A stretch of DNA of 10,467 bases from Alphaproteobacteria bacterium (GTDB lineage: Bacteria; Pseudomonadota; Alphaproteobacteria; RF32; CAG-239): NCBI GenBank assembly GCA_017650255.1, contig JAGCFG010000056.1, positions 1 through 10,467 of the forward strand, in the 5' to 3' direction. The translations under genes and the position numbers were made by a program. The notes beneath the pieces are model-generated. The model saw only the letters and a program-made list of their open reading frames with translations, ran no database searches and had not been told where the DNA came from. Shown here piece after piece: positions 1-2,960 of this stretch. Position 1 is the first letter of the stretch; every line of letters begins with the position of its first letter.

Positions 1-104
1 AGCTTTATATCAAACGTTGCTATCTTTCTAACGGCCAGCTGTTGAAGCTGCTCAACAACGGTAGAATTGACATTGTCAAAACTTATCTGAAAACTCACTT
101 ATGA
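1..104 (+). CDS. C-terminal end of a 26-residue-repeat protein (partial)
   Basis: This is an open reading frame entering from the left edge. Codons start at base 3 and end in TGA at 102-104, leaving 33 visible residues. The last 26 residues form one repeat unit of the same kind as in the three genes that follow: Leu-Ser at repeat positions 1-2, Leu-Leu at 9-10, Gly at 13, Ile-Val-Lys at 17-19 and Tyr-Leu at 21-22. The protein ends exactly at the end of that repeat. It lies 33 bases upstream of the next family member with no terminator between, so the two may be co-transcribed. The function is unknown and I recognise no named family. Assignment to the repeat family rests on only one unit, but it aligns without gaps. 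Confidence 0.6.
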   Translation, partial: LYIKRCYLSNGQLLKLLNNGRIDIVKTYLKTHL

Positions 105-137
105 TTTCTGTTTTATTGTTTTTTAAATATTTTTATT

Positions 138-518
138 ATGAGTTATAAGGAAAAAATTGATCAAGAGGAAATTTTGACTGTCGAGGAAGAAAGACAGTTG
201 ATTGACGCGAAGGATTTGGAGTATTTGAAAAAATATCTCGAATATTCTACGCTGTTCCTCGAAAATGAAGTGCACTTTGTGTACAATTTTAAGGATACCG
301 AAATTTTCGGGACCTATCTCCAAACAGATGGATTGTGCTCTTCTCATGCTCAAGCCGCTTGCGCAAAGTTGTGCAGCAAAGAGGATGTTGTGTGCATGAT
401 TGAAGATCTCAGTTCGCGCAGTGAAGAAGTTGAAAAAGAGCTTCTGAGCCGCGGGGATGAAGAACTTTTGGAGTTCTATGAAGAAAAATATGGTGACATT
501 GTCGTTGAGAATGTGTAA
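138..518 (+). CDS. Small acidic protein with 26-residue helical repeats, unknown function
   Basis: A 126-residue protein that I do not recognise. After a 12-residue leader (Lys6-Ile7), repeat-like units begin at residue 13. The first (13-38) is clear, with Leu at 1, Leu-Ile at 9-10, Tyr-Leu-Lys at 17-19 and Tyr-Leu at 21-22. The second is one residue longer, the third (about 66-91) is degenerate, and the last (about 94-119) regains Leu-Leu, Gly, Leu-Leu and Tyr. The third unit carries four cysteines in 20 residues (67, 75, 79, 86). By my count there are 32 acidic and 13 basic residues, making it strongly acidic. There is no signal peptide or membrane segment, so a cytoplasmic location is inferred. 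The ATG is supported by the leader shared with the two genes downstream. No Shine-Dalgarno is visible; the upstream stretch is very T-rich. A strong terminator follows. Confidence 0.75.
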   Translation: MSYKEKIDQEEILTVEEERQLIDAKDLEYLKKYLEYSTLFLENEVHFVYNFKDTEIFGTYLQTDGLCSSHAQAACAKLCSKEDVVCMIEDLSSRSEEVEKELLSRGDEELLEFYEEKYGDIVVENV

Positions 519-522
519 CAAC

Positions 523-565
523 AAAAGCTCCTTGGTCGTTGTAATGACGGCTGAGGAGTTTTTTA
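523..565 (+). terminator. Rho-independent terminator after the acidic repeat gene
   Basis: A 12-base-pair stem (528-539 with 547-558, including G-T wobble pairs at three positions) encloses a 7-base loop and is followed directly by six T residues from 559. A run of A before the stem can pair with this T tract, so some termination on the opposite strand is also possible. It starts a few bases after the stop codon at 516-518 and separates the first two repeat genes from the next two. Confidence 0.85.
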
Positions 566-567
566 TT

Positions 568-620
568 TTGACAAAATTAAATTTATTTCTTGACAAAAAT
601 ATAAAAATATGCTTTGTTAT
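568..620 (+). promoter_or_regulatory. Candidate promoter with duplicated -35-like TTGACAAAA
   Basis: The nine bases TTGACAAAA occur at 568-576 and again at 590-598, exactly 22 bases apart (about two helical turns), in a very AT-rich stretch between the terminator and the gene at 661. The second copy could act as a -35 box with TGTTAT (615-620) as a -10 box, but the 19-base spacer is long and the -10 match is only 4 of 6. The pair may instead be a binding site. A promoter is expected here because a terminator lies just upstream; its exact position is uncertain. Confidence 0.4.
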
Positions 621-660
621 TGTATGATAAAAAAATCGATTATTAATAAAACCTATAATT

Positions 661-1050
661 ATGTACACACAAGACAAAGTTTTGGAAGGAATTCCTATTG
701 CACAGAGTGAGCAATTCTATTTGATTGAAACCGGAAAGACATGGCTTATACGGCGGTATATACAAAAATTCCGTCTGTCGGCCAAGGCGCAGATTTTACT
801 TCTTAAAAAATCTAAGAGCAGACTTTTTAAGGAGTATGTAATGCGCTATGATATCGCTCCAATTGCACAGGTAAAGATGGTTGAATTACGTAACATTAAT
901 CTGTTTAAGATTTTTGTTGAAAACAATAAGCTATCGCTGCCGGCACAAAAAAAATTGCTTGAACCATGCTATGCGGATATGTTGAAGGAGTATACGAAGT
1001 ATCATGCCCTTCATCCTTCGGTATTGAGAAATCAAAAAAATGTCAAATAA
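661..1050 (+). CDS. Small basic protein of four 26-residue helical repeats, unknown function
   Basis: A 129-residue protein that gives the clearest view of the repeat family. After a 12-residue leader (Lys6-Val7), four units of exactly 26 residues run from 13-38, 39-64, 65-90 and 91-116, and the first 13 residues of a fifth end the protein. Each unit has Leu/Ile at position 1, Ser/Ala at 2, Gln at 6, two hydrophobic residues at 9-10, hydrophobic residues at 17-18, Lys/Arg at 19, Tyr/Phe at 21 and usually an aliphatic residue at 22. This pattern suits two short amphipathic helices per unit and hence a small alpha-solenoid, which is inference. By my count there are 24 basic and 11 acidic residues. 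There is no signal peptide, membrane segment or catalytic motif. No Shine-Dalgarno precedes the ATG. The next paralogue starts 11 bases after the stop, so the pair is probably co-transcribed. Confidence 0.8.
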   Translation: MYTQDKVLEGIPIAQSEQFYLIETGKTWLIRRYIQKFRLSAKAQILLLKKSKSRLFKEYVMRYDIAPIAQVKMVELRNINLFKIFVENNKLSLPAQKKLLEPCYADMLKEYTKYHALHPSVLRNQKNVK

Positions 1051-1061
1051 AAAAAACTGTT

Positions 1062-1433
1062 ATGACAACAAGACAAAAAATCTTGAACAAGCAACCTCTT
1101 TCTGATGAGGAAATTCGTCAGCTCATTGAGCAGAAGAAGGAGTATTTGGTTCTCCTTTATCTGGGCTACTGTCCGTTAATCTACGCTCAAGAACTCTGGC
1201 TGGTTAATTCTGGCATGAAAAAAGCATTGCGCAAGCAAATTAAACTCCATGGGTTGTCTTACCCACAAGCCGAAGTGGACTTGATGAAACCCGAGAACAT
1301 TGAGTTTATTAAGCTTCTTATCAAAGAGCAAATGGTTTGTTACAATGCGGAAATTGCCTTGAAAAATCTAGGCTCTGACGAGCTGAACAACCTCTACAGG
1401 AAGAAGCACCGCTTTTTTATGTGCGAAAGATAA
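1062..1433 (+). CDS. Small protein of four 26-residue helical repeats, unknown function
   Basis: A 123-residue paralogue of the preceding gene. The 12-residue leader again carries Lys6-Ile7, and four units of 26 residues occupy 13-38, 39-64, 65-90 and 91-116, followed by a short aromatic and basic tail. The first two units fit the family pattern well. In the last two, the hydrophobic positions shift by about one residue. The frame is open further upstream to an ATG at 966, but that start would overlap the previous gene by 85 bases and break the shared leader and repeat register, so the ATG at 1062 is chosen. No Shine-Dalgarno is seen; translation may be coupled to the gene 11 bases upstream. 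The protein is mildly basic with no export signal. A hairpin terminator follows within six bases of the stop. Function unknown. Confidence 0.8.
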   Translation: MTTRQKILNKQPLSDEEIRQLIEQKKEYLVLLYLGYCPLIYAQELWLVNSGMKKALRKQIKLHGLSYPQAEVDLMKPENIEFIKLLIKEQMVCYNAEIALKNLGSDELNNLYRKKHRFFMCER

Positions 1434-1438
1434 CAAAA

Positions 1439-1477
1439 CCCCGATTGTCGTGATGATAATCGGGGTGTTTTTGTTTT
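1439..1477. terminator. Bidirectional terminator between converging repeat genes and lipid A operon
   Basis: An 11-base-pair stem (1439-1449 with 1455-1465, one G-T pair) with a GC-rich base and a 5-base loop. On the + strand it is followed by T-rich sequence from 1466, ending the repeat-gene unit. On the - strand it lies about 27 bases beyond the fabZ stop and is followed by TTTTGTT, so it can end the operon too. Its position between two converging units fits a shared terminator. Confidence 0.85.
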
Positions 1478-1492
1478 TGATGAGTGATTTTT

Positions 1493-1936
1493 TTATAAAA
1501 TCATTGCGGTAAATTCTGCCTCGGACACAACTTTGTCATCTACCATCGCTCTGCCTTTGAAAACAAAAACATTACGGCGAGACTGAATTTTTTCGACATA
1601 CATTTTCATTTGGTCGCCGGGTTTTACCGGTTTGCGGAATTTTACGCCGTCGATCGACATAAACAAAACATTCGGGGTTTTCTCCACATTTTCGGCACCG
1701 GCAACAACAATCGCTCCTGCTGTTTGTGCCATAGCCTCAATTTGCAAAACTCCCGGCATTACCGGATTGTTGGGGAAATGGCCTTGAAAAAATTCTTCGT
1801 TCATAGTCAGGTTCTTCAGTCCCATGCCTTTTTCACCGGGGATTTCCACCTCCAACCTATCCAGCAACAAAAACGGATAGCGGTGAGGCAAAAGTTTCAT
1901 AATTTCTTCGATATGATAAACTTTATTTTCTGACAT
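1493..1936 (-). CDS. fabZ: 3-hydroxyacyl-[acyl-carrier-protein] dehydratase FabZ
   Basis: FabZ removes water from 3-hydroxyacyl-ACP in the elongation cycle of type II fatty acid synthesis in the cytoplasm. The 147-residue length is normal for the family. The hot-dog-fold signatures are present: HRYPFLLLDR near residues 18-27, the catalytic His53 in GHFPNNPVMPG, and the catalytic Glu67 in the helix that follows (IEAMAQ). The ATG at 1936 is chosen because AGAGGA lies 4 bases upstream; the open frame extends 12 codons further into the end of lpxD, with no support for that start. It is the last gene of the operon, 10 bases after lpxD. The pairing makes sense because 3-hydroxyacyl-ACP is the branch point between FabZ (membrane fatty acids) and LpxD (lipid A). 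In most alphaproteobacteria lpxA would follow; here a terminator does. Confidence 0.97.
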   Translation of the reverse strand: MSENKVYHIEEIMKLLPHRYPFLLLDRLEVEIPGEKGMGLKNLTMNEEFFQGHFPNNPVMPGVLQIEAMAQTAGAIVVAGAENVEKTPNVLFMSIDGVKFRKPVKPGDQMKMYVEKIQSRRNVFVFKGRAMVDDKVVSEAEFTAMIL

Positions 1937-1940
1937 ATTT

Positions 1941-1946
1941 TCCTCT
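1941..1946 (-). promoter_or_regulatory. Ribosome binding site deciding the fabZ start
   Basis: AGAGGA on the minus strand, 4 bases before the ATG at 1936. It supports this start over the longer in-frame one at 1972, which lies within the lpxD coding region. Confidence 0.8.
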
Positions 1947-2960
1947 TTATTTTTTTGAACTTTTTTGAACAAACGACACTTGACGCATAAAGTCTTTTAT
2001 CGGCACGCAGGGGGAGCCCATAACAATACTTCCCGGTTCGATATCACGCATTGCACCTGATTGGGCACCGACTTGAGCAAAGGAACCAACATTCAAATGG
2101 TCAGCAAAGCCTGTTTGACCTCCGCAAACGACATAGTCTCCAAAGTTGCAGCTTCCGGCAATACCGGTTTGGGAGACAATTATGCAACCGCGCCCAAGTT
2201 TGTCGTTGTGGGCAATTTGGACAAGGTTGTCAATGCGGCAGCCGTCACCAATTATTGTATCACCCAAAGCGCCTCTGTCAACGCAAGAACACGAACCAAT
2301 TTCAACATCGTCACCGATAATCACTCTGCCAAGCTGAGGAATGCGTTTGTGTACGCCATTGATGGTTTCAAAACCAAAGCCATCTTGTCCAATGCGAGCG
2401 CCGTTATATATGTAGCAATGATTACCGATTATGGAATATGCAATATAACAATGTGCGCCCAAGCGGCAATTGTCGCCGATTGTGCACCCCTGCTCCACGA
2501 CAGCAAATGGCTCAACAATCGTATTTTTGCCAATTTTAACATTAGCGCCGATAACCGCATAAGGTGCTATGGAGCAACCATCGCCTATTTCGGCTGATGA
2601 GTCTATGCAGGCAAGAGGAGAAACACCGGCTTGTGGACGTTTTTGCGAATACATGGCTTCGTTTAACTTTAGGTAGGCCAATTTTGGATTTTCCGTGGTC
2701 AAAATTATTACACCTTGTGCCACAAATTGAGCCAAATCCGCTGAGGTTACGCAGACCGAAGCCTTGATTTCGGCTCCGGCTGCTTTTTTCTTGCGGTCAT
2801 AAAAGAAGCATACTTCTCCTTTTTGAGCCGAAGTCATCATATTGATATCGTTGATTAACTCATTTTCGGAACCGGGGGTTATAATCTTGGCATCGCAAAT
2901 TTTTGCAATTTCCGCAACAGTCAATTTTCCCGAGTGATTAAAAAAACGAGTATCAACCAT
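1947..2960 (-). CDS. lpxD: UDP-3-O-(3-hydroxyacyl)glucosamine N-acyltransferase LpxD
   Basis: LpxD transfers a 3-hydroxyacyl chain from ACP to the 2-amino group of UDP-3-O-acyl-glucosamine, the third step of lipid A synthesis. The protein has 337 residues, typical for the family. An N-terminal uridine-binding domain (about 1-110) is followed by a left-handed parallel beta helix (about 115-315) built of hexapeptide repeats such as IGDGCS, IGANVK and IGDNCR. The expected catalytic histidine is His251 in NLVQIAHN, and the GQDGFGFE motif lies near residue 191. A C-terminal helical tail follows. ATG at 2960 is chosen with AAGGAG 7 bases upstream; an in-frame TTG one codon earlier is less likely. 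The ribosome binding site overlaps the bamA stop, so translation is probably coupled. Its presence implies an outer membrane containing lipid A, provided the rest of the pathway lies elsewhere. Confidence 0.97.
   Translation of the reverse strand: MVDTRFFNHSGKLTVAEIAKICDAKIITPGSENELINDINMMTSAQKGEVCFFYDRKKKAAGAEIKASVCVTSADLAQFVAQGVIILTTENPKLAYLKLNEAMYSQKRPQAGVSPLACIDSSAEIGDGCSIAPYAVIGANVKIGKNTIVEPFAVVEQGCTIGDNCRLGAHCYIAYSIIGNHCYIYNGARIGQDGFGFETINGVHKRIPQLGRVIIGDDVEIGSCSCVDRGALGDTIIGDGCRIDNLVQIAHNDKLGRGCIIVSQTGIAGSCNFGDYVVCGGQTGFADHLNVGSFAQVGAQSGAMRDIEPGSIVMGSPCVPIKDFMRQVSFVQKSSKK

Follow-up and report, generated by a model that had tools for sequence, protein, structure and literature searches.

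Among described repeat families, the Armadillo (ARM) unit spans about 42 residues, the Sel1 unit about 36, and the TAL effector unit 33-35. A 2024 review sorts the alpha-solenoids into eight subfolds, and its passages on unit length put the ankyrin unit at 30-34 residues, PPR at 31-36, TPR at about 34, PUF at about 36 and HEAT at about 40 (PMC11514114). Here, we describe a cluster of genes at positions 1-1433 of a 10,467-nucleotide stretch of alphaproteobacterial DNA (the window; contig JAGCFG010000056.1 of assembly GCA_017650255.1) whose products are built from 26-residue units, predicted to be pairs of helices. Since a unit of 26 residues falls outside the lengths in those passages (30 to about 40; PMC11514114), we regard these proteins as a repeat family that is new within a known fold class; the titles and abstract openings surveyed, which cover part of the papers found, hold no description of this repeat. 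We consider it probable that they represent an undescribed alpha-solenoid family, observed to date in a single bacterial family, whose members most likely serve as soluble, modular protein-binding adaptors.

In the source assembly (1.01 Mb in 152 contigs, 79% complete), the window corresponds to contig C109. Its first 1433 positions hold the tail of one gene and three whole genes, here called W1, W2 and W3, all on the forward strand and convergent with fabZ (Table 1). An earlier, sequence-only reading had recognised three complete genes and one partial gene composed of 26-residue units, and its coordinates were correct. The window proteins contain a 26-residue repeat. In self-comparison, W2 alone shows a period of 26 (z 6.6, 0 of 300 shuffles), W1 and W3 alone are not significant (lag 27, z 2.9, p 0.07, and lag 26, z 2.3, p 0.31, respectively), and pooling at lag 26 gives z 5.8 for the three window proteins and z 21.2 for the 24 repeat proteins of the genome. 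All four products were also scored with a unit profile made from 517 units that included none from the window proteins, and each exceeded all 3000 of its own shuffles. This profile places unit starts at residues 17, 44, 71 and 98 of W1, at 17, 43, 69 and 95 of W2, and at 17, 43, 70 and 96 of W3. The four units of W2 score 10.8-21.1 bits each and follow one another without a gap, exactly as first read. The third unit of W1 (-1.7 bits) and the first two of W3 (0.9 and -0.1 bits) score near or below zero and therefore rest on register. Among the loci fetched, neither W1 nor W3 has a tblastn match at 1e-5 outside its own contig, so that they are assigned to the family by the profile and by the adjacent W2.

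A consensus was derived from 567 units of 93 proteins, restricted to units that lacked gaps and passed a score threshold, in proteins scoring more than 14-15 bits. It reads A/E1, E/Q2, L5, L/I/V6, G9, N/S/D10, E/D12, L13, I/L14, K15, Y17 (90%), I18, K/R20, Y/H21, L23 and C/S24, with glycine common at position 9 only (28%). The residue pattern noticed originally in the window proteins is this family pattern shifted by four: its Tyr 21 corresponds to Tyr17, its positions 9/10 to L5/V6, 17/18 to L13/L14, 6 to E/Q2, 13 to G9, and 1 to L23. The length of the unit varies within the family. A sister form has 27 residues, two proteins on contig C114 of the same genome show a 29-residue period, and neighbouring units in relatives (loci L071-L084) are spaced by 26 (n=62), 27 (n=24), 28 (n=10) and, in a few cases, 29-33 residues.

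AlphaFold2 models W2 as stacked two-helix hairpins, entirely helical, with a predicted local distance difference test (pLDDT) score of 93.5 and helices at H15-24/H27-34, H41-50/H53-62, H67-76/H79-86 and H93-99/H102-112. In a second, 248-residue model, two N-terminal helices precede 8 regular helix pairs, compared with 4 pairs in W2 (DSSP lists), and neither model contains a beta strand. The units lie in tandem in one elongated stack in both models, the arrangement of an alpha-solenoid, so the fold class proposed from sequence is borne out by prediction. Helix A occupies about positions 25-8 of the unit, the turn 9-10, helix B about 11-20, and the loop 21-24. The conserved hydrophobic residues Leu5, Val/Leu6, Leu13, Ile/Leu14, Tyr17, Ile18 and Leu23 presumably form the stacking core.

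The sequence-only reading had assigned the proteins to no named family, and database comparisons agree. When 23 repeat proteins were scanned against Pfam (E up to 1 or 0.1), nothing rose above a cut-off and no ankyrin, HEAT, ARM, PPR or Sel1 model appeared; the matches below cut-off (best E 2.1e-5, 24.6 bits against a cut-off of 26.9) were judged to be chance. No NCBIfam model exceeded its cut-off for the three window proteins, no profile of a family with another unit length claimed them, and the best matches among PDB sequences were not significant (E 0.031 and 0.099). Of six proteins compared with PHROGs, only the two most repetitive had matches, which were short and partial and were likewise judged to be chance; all were to families of unknown function except two, a tail-fibre and a tail-completion family. 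Foldseek, proposed earlier together with AlphaFold as a check, found no match at E <= 0.001 for either model among solved structures or for one model among viral models.

The repeat is restricted to one bacterial family in the samples searched. The source genome itself (1.0 Mb) contains 52 matches to a three-unit profile on seven contigs, with 105 units called in 24 proteins; thus the original description of four small paralogues was right about the tandem cluster and too low in its count. In relatives, repeat proteins reach about 700 residues. At E <= 0.001, matches occur in 95 of the 152 genomes of the bacterial family and in 13 of 16 genera; some have just one match, and a weak one. Counts per genome in this survey are lower bounds (at most 37 candidates were scored per genome in genus g4): 12 of the 18 g4 genomes listed have at least 23-39 matches and six have 2-17, and one genome of genus g3 has at least 41. 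Among 74 genomes of relatives, 21 match (the source genome included), all inside the family, as against 0 of 32 outside it. The class sample yielded four matching genomes of 385, all four from the same family, and the phylum sample one of 349, the source genome. A Bacteroides-centred phylum sample yielded one of 395, over 35 columns at E 8.9e-4, which is about chance level. Apart from this borderline case, every match in these three samples comes from the one family, in keeping with the lineage-specific distribution first suggested. Three of the 12 genomes behind named loci match, namely Azospirillum sp. CAG:239 (E 1.4e-4) and two Alphaproteobacteria metagenome-assembled genomes (MAGs; L087, L088); none of the five outside Alphaproteobacteria does.

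Protein databases add few relatives with names. A search with W2 found one metagenome protein, P0001 (65% identity), and no match among viral contigs. A ten-row profile found at least 5 proteins and a protein of the 27-residue form at least 30, among about 8000 candidates scored in each case. Just 4 of these 30 have a source name, "hypothetical protein" in every case, and the sources seen assign no function; for one of the 30, a Pfam label had been precomputed, PF06200 (tify), and we take it for a chance match. A contig scan with a repeat protein as query found no relative, and in a scan with LpxD the better-matching named relatives were, by title, mostly rumen and gut Alphaproteobacteria MAGs. 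Separately, the first part of the N-terminal extension of P0001 (residues 1-39) resembles, by eye, a reading in another frame of window positions 545-660, ahead of W2, and the extension is probably an over-called start.

Other members of the family are under purifying selection, yet they evolve faster than housekeeping genes. Ratios of nonsynonymous to synonymous substitution rates (dN/dS; Nei-Gojobori) were calculated for 26 orthologue pairs of 46-97% identity, defined as reciprocal best matches over 80% of their length and not independent of one another; W1-W3 are not among them. The ratio was 0.09-0.36 in 23 pairs, and three pairs were saturated. In a matched comparison between the source genome and its nearest named relative fetched (L085, from yak rumen), six housekeeping genes gave dN/dS of 0.03-0.12 at 79-95% identity, and the two unsaturated repeat pairs gave 0.13 and 0.19, with four repeat pairs 46-68% identical. 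Because the ratios are low and the identities lie below those of the housekeeping controls, these members appear to be retained while changing more rapidly. Within single proteins, positions 22, 26, 3, 24 and 25 are the least conserved between units (identity 0.07-0.13); between orthologues their identity is 0.45-0.66 (11 chosen pairs, 82 units).

These observations fit a model in which the helical stack would act as a rigid scaffold carrying a variable surface, much as an ankyrin domain does. This surface, made up of the loop at 22-26 and the first turn of helix A, may bind partner proteins, and duplication of genes and of units could supply new binding specificities. The wide differences in net charge among W1, W2 and W3 (Table 1) suggest that neighbouring proteins have different partners. 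Loops vary in most proteins, however, and the variability of these positions is thus weak evidence for a binding face.

Several other explanations bear on the same data. We think it unlikely that the proteins belong, as divergent forms, to a named repeat family; ankyrins that have lost their beta-hairpin would be the most plausible candidate. The geometry of W2 is nearest to ankyrin repeats without the hairpin, with middling scores, and ankyrins dominate its VIA-align list; many giant-virus ankyrin proteins appear in the BFVD list for the longer model, none at E <= 0.001, and each of the 12 genomes of the family that were tested encodes ordinary ankyrin proteins (loci L207-L218), with the highest count, 39 matches, in G015. 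Profile-profile comparison (hhalign) with five local ankyrin proteins, a thin profile of five rows, gave one weak alignment of 18 columns, which we read as pairing helix A, turn and helix B with the matching ankyrin segment. Its probability of 0.7% (E 0.084), against 99.4% (E 5.7e-21) for the positive control, leaves homology to ankyrin unsupported, and the shorter unit and the Pfam results described above argue in the same direction. Of other named families, the TPR-like Pfam model TPR_Vps41 appeared for one protein at 14.4 bits, far under its cut-off of 27. An origin as decaying or non-coding relics is scarcely credible: the units of W1 and W3 are degenerate and stops interrupt some matches (G031, G038, G040, G086, G154, and one on contig C69 of the source genome), but the low dN/dS of other members argues for retention, and W2 has an open reading frame and shares 65% identity with a metagenome protein. 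Nucleic-acid-binding solenoids with a one-unit-one-base code, as in PPR or TAL repeats, would also have regular two-helix units in long arrays, and PUF proteins are among the matches of the longer model. We nevertheless consider such a code very unlikely, as the median net charge is -0.9 per 100 residues (93 proteins; range -15.1 to +10.1), W1 carries -19, and the variable positions form a broad patch at 22-26 and 3 in which no two stand out as hypervariable.

The proteins might instead be effectors, injected into or released towards a eukaryotic host in the animal gut or among rumen protozoa, like the ankyrin effectors of host-associated bacteria; we find this doubtful. The named relatives are largely gut and rumen bacteria, family genomes are 0.6-2.0 Mb (some incomplete), a single VirB4-type match is present in 126 of 152 of them, ordinary ankyrin proteins are numerous in several, and the repeat proteins evolve faster than housekeeping genes. 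The repeat is not, however, associated with VirB4 (both in 82 genomes, repeat only in 13, VirB4 only in 44, neither in 13; Fisher p 0.18), so that dependence on a type IV secretion system finds no support although VirB4 is nearly universal in the family. The repeat-rich genomes G001, G083, G077 and G080 have no VirB4 match, though they are incomplete (92, 91, 95 and 72%), and the lower-bound repeat counts show no significant correlation with ankyrin matches across 12 genomes (rho 0.37, p 0.23). No signal peptide was seen by eye, and the titles, abstract openings and passages surveyed show no intracellular life for the lineage. A type III apparatus likewise finds no support, FHIPEP being found in only 3 of 12 genomes; we infer that these matches are flagellar export proteins. 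Next to the VirB4-type matches at L203, L204 and L206 lie, by eye, small genes resembling pilin genes and a series of proteins predicted to be exported, and the VirB4-type system of the family, which from these sequences may be an inherited secretion or pilus system, is worth a study of its own.

The protein-binding adaptor is our preferred interpretation. A broader version of it is possible, and we offer it tentatively: a new short-unit alpha-solenoid subfold may have arisen within a single alphaproteobacterial family of the gut and rumen, working like ankyrin but without the hairpin and giving a fast-changing repertoire of partner-binding proteins made by duplication, with dozens of matches in some genomes beside true ankyrins. 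For protein engineering, a natural unit of 26 residues, repeated regularly up to 18 times, would provide a compact new scaffold, and it would offer a handle on the way in which a gut and rumen family that is widespread, but known mainly through metagenomes, deals with its surroundings. Because regular arrays occur in it beside degenerate ones, the repeat family is also a good case for studying the origin of repeat proteins.

In L085, whose LpxD is 86% identical to that of the source genome, a seven-gene repeat cluster lies beside fabZ in the same place and orientation. Among 3103 open reading frames (ORFs) of 80 lpxD loci, only these seven exceed 15 bits against the unit profile, and no reversed decoy exceeds 10 bits. 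Four of the L085 genes are reciprocal-best partners of genes on contig C33 of the source genome (46-68% identity), and W1-W3 have no such partner in the L085 cluster; between these two genomes, the fabZ site is thus shared and its gene content differs. The L085 gene order suggests that C33 is the contig upstream of the window, but the ends have no exact overlap of 15-200 bases. Other clusters of the source genome lie, by eye from translations, beside tolQRA (C69) and the rnf genes (C6). In two g4 orthologues of 567 and 618 residues, 16 and 18 units follow one another regularly (the 18-unit array is L187:10764-12617) after a duplicated-looking N-terminal domain, a sign of unit gain or loss. In several g4 genomes (L187:10764-11153, L185, L072, L196), this domain ('YPFYVYPDGTCG'), which has no Pfam match, is fused to the arrays.

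Three neighbours of repeat genes elsewhere in the source genome are recorded in their own right. Within the C69 cluster, a 193-residue protein (L009:5540-6118, reverse strand) consists of EF-Tu domains 2 and 3 only (PF03144, 6e-19; PF03143, 1.2e-12), without the GTPase domain, and its tblastn matches at 1e-5 are confined to loci of C69 itself. On the opposite strand in the C33 cluster, L010:2430-2852 (forward strand) encodes a protein whose N-terminus is signal-like and which carries 'YGYNAQGDYVPTSVG'-type units in tandem, again with tblastn matches at 1e-5 only to loci of its own contig. Near the C114 repeat genes, a low-complexity tandem repeat is open in several frames (L012:1355-1746; 'SPGSKSSRIL' / 'DFEPGDRIR').

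In the window itself, W3 starts 11 bases 3' of W2. Its start was taken as the ATG at 1062 and not the upstream ATG at 966 of the ORF list, because the product from 1062 aligns with its neighbours over its whole length. Three terminator-like hairpins were found in the window against a shuffle mean of 1.7 (sd 1.4), an excess that is not clear, and an Rfam search of the window gave no match.

Table 1. Coordinates of the repeat genes, their units and adjoining features in the window.
Feature	Position	Strand	Basis or remark
Repeat-gene 3' end, truncated at contig start	3..104	+	Frame 3, 33 residues then TGA; 19.7 bits against window-free unit profile, 0/3000 shuffles as high
W1, repeat protein, 126 aa, net charge -19	138..518	+	22.9 bits, 0/3000 shuffles as high
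W1 units (n=4)	about 186-263, 267-344, 348-425, 429-506	+	Third barely recognisable (-1.7 bits)
Terminator-like hairpin between W1 and W2	523..563	+	Consensus match only
W2, repeat protein, 129 aa, net charge +13	661..1050	+	65.2 bits, 0/3000 shuffles as high
W2 units (n=4), gap-free	709-786, 787-864, 865-942, 943-1020	+	Unit profile and self-comparison
W3, repeat protein, 123 aa, net charge +5	1062..1433	+	18.0 bits, 0/3000 shuffles as high
W3 units (n=4)	1110-1187, 1188-1265, 1269-1346, 1347-1424	+	First two score near zero
Terminator-like hairpin 3' of W3, ahead of convergent fabZ	1438..1466	+	Consensus match only
fabZ (named by eye), convergent neighbour marking the cluster site	1493..1972	-	Translation

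Set beside the known alpha-solenoids, the 26-residue family shares general architecture with several and unit length with none of those in the review passages. TPR, PPR and PUF proteins also have two-helix or helical solenoid units and appear in low-scoring Foldseek rows, whereas their units are longer (about 34, 31-36 and about 36 residues; PMC11514114) and no Pfam model of theirs rises above cut-off. Sel1 and TAL effector repeats are listed as alpha-solenoid subfolds in the same passages (PMC11514114), but their units exceed 26 residues and neither has a Pfam match here. Armadillo and HEAT proteins may share a helical superhelix with the family, and the top VIA-align rows for the 248-residue model include importin-alpha and designed armadillo proteins; the importin rows, however, have root-mean-square deviations of 8.5-12.2 A, with shorter designed-armadillo alignments down to 4.8 A, the HEAT unit has about 40 residues (PMC11514114), and there is no Pfam match. 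The closest comparison is with ankyrin, from which the family differs in its unit of 26 rather than 30-34 residues (PMC11514114), in the predicted lack of a beta-hairpin, in the lack from the consensus of TPLH and of the conserved glycines of ankyrin (position 9 alone is commonly glycine), and in Tyr at position 17. Like ankyrin repeats, the units are predicted to consist of two antiparallel helices stacked side by side, and about one W2 unit corresponds to one ankyrin repeat in several VIA-align rows (ankyrins and DARPins). The Gly-Asn at the turn between helices A and B recalls the Gly-His of ankyrin.
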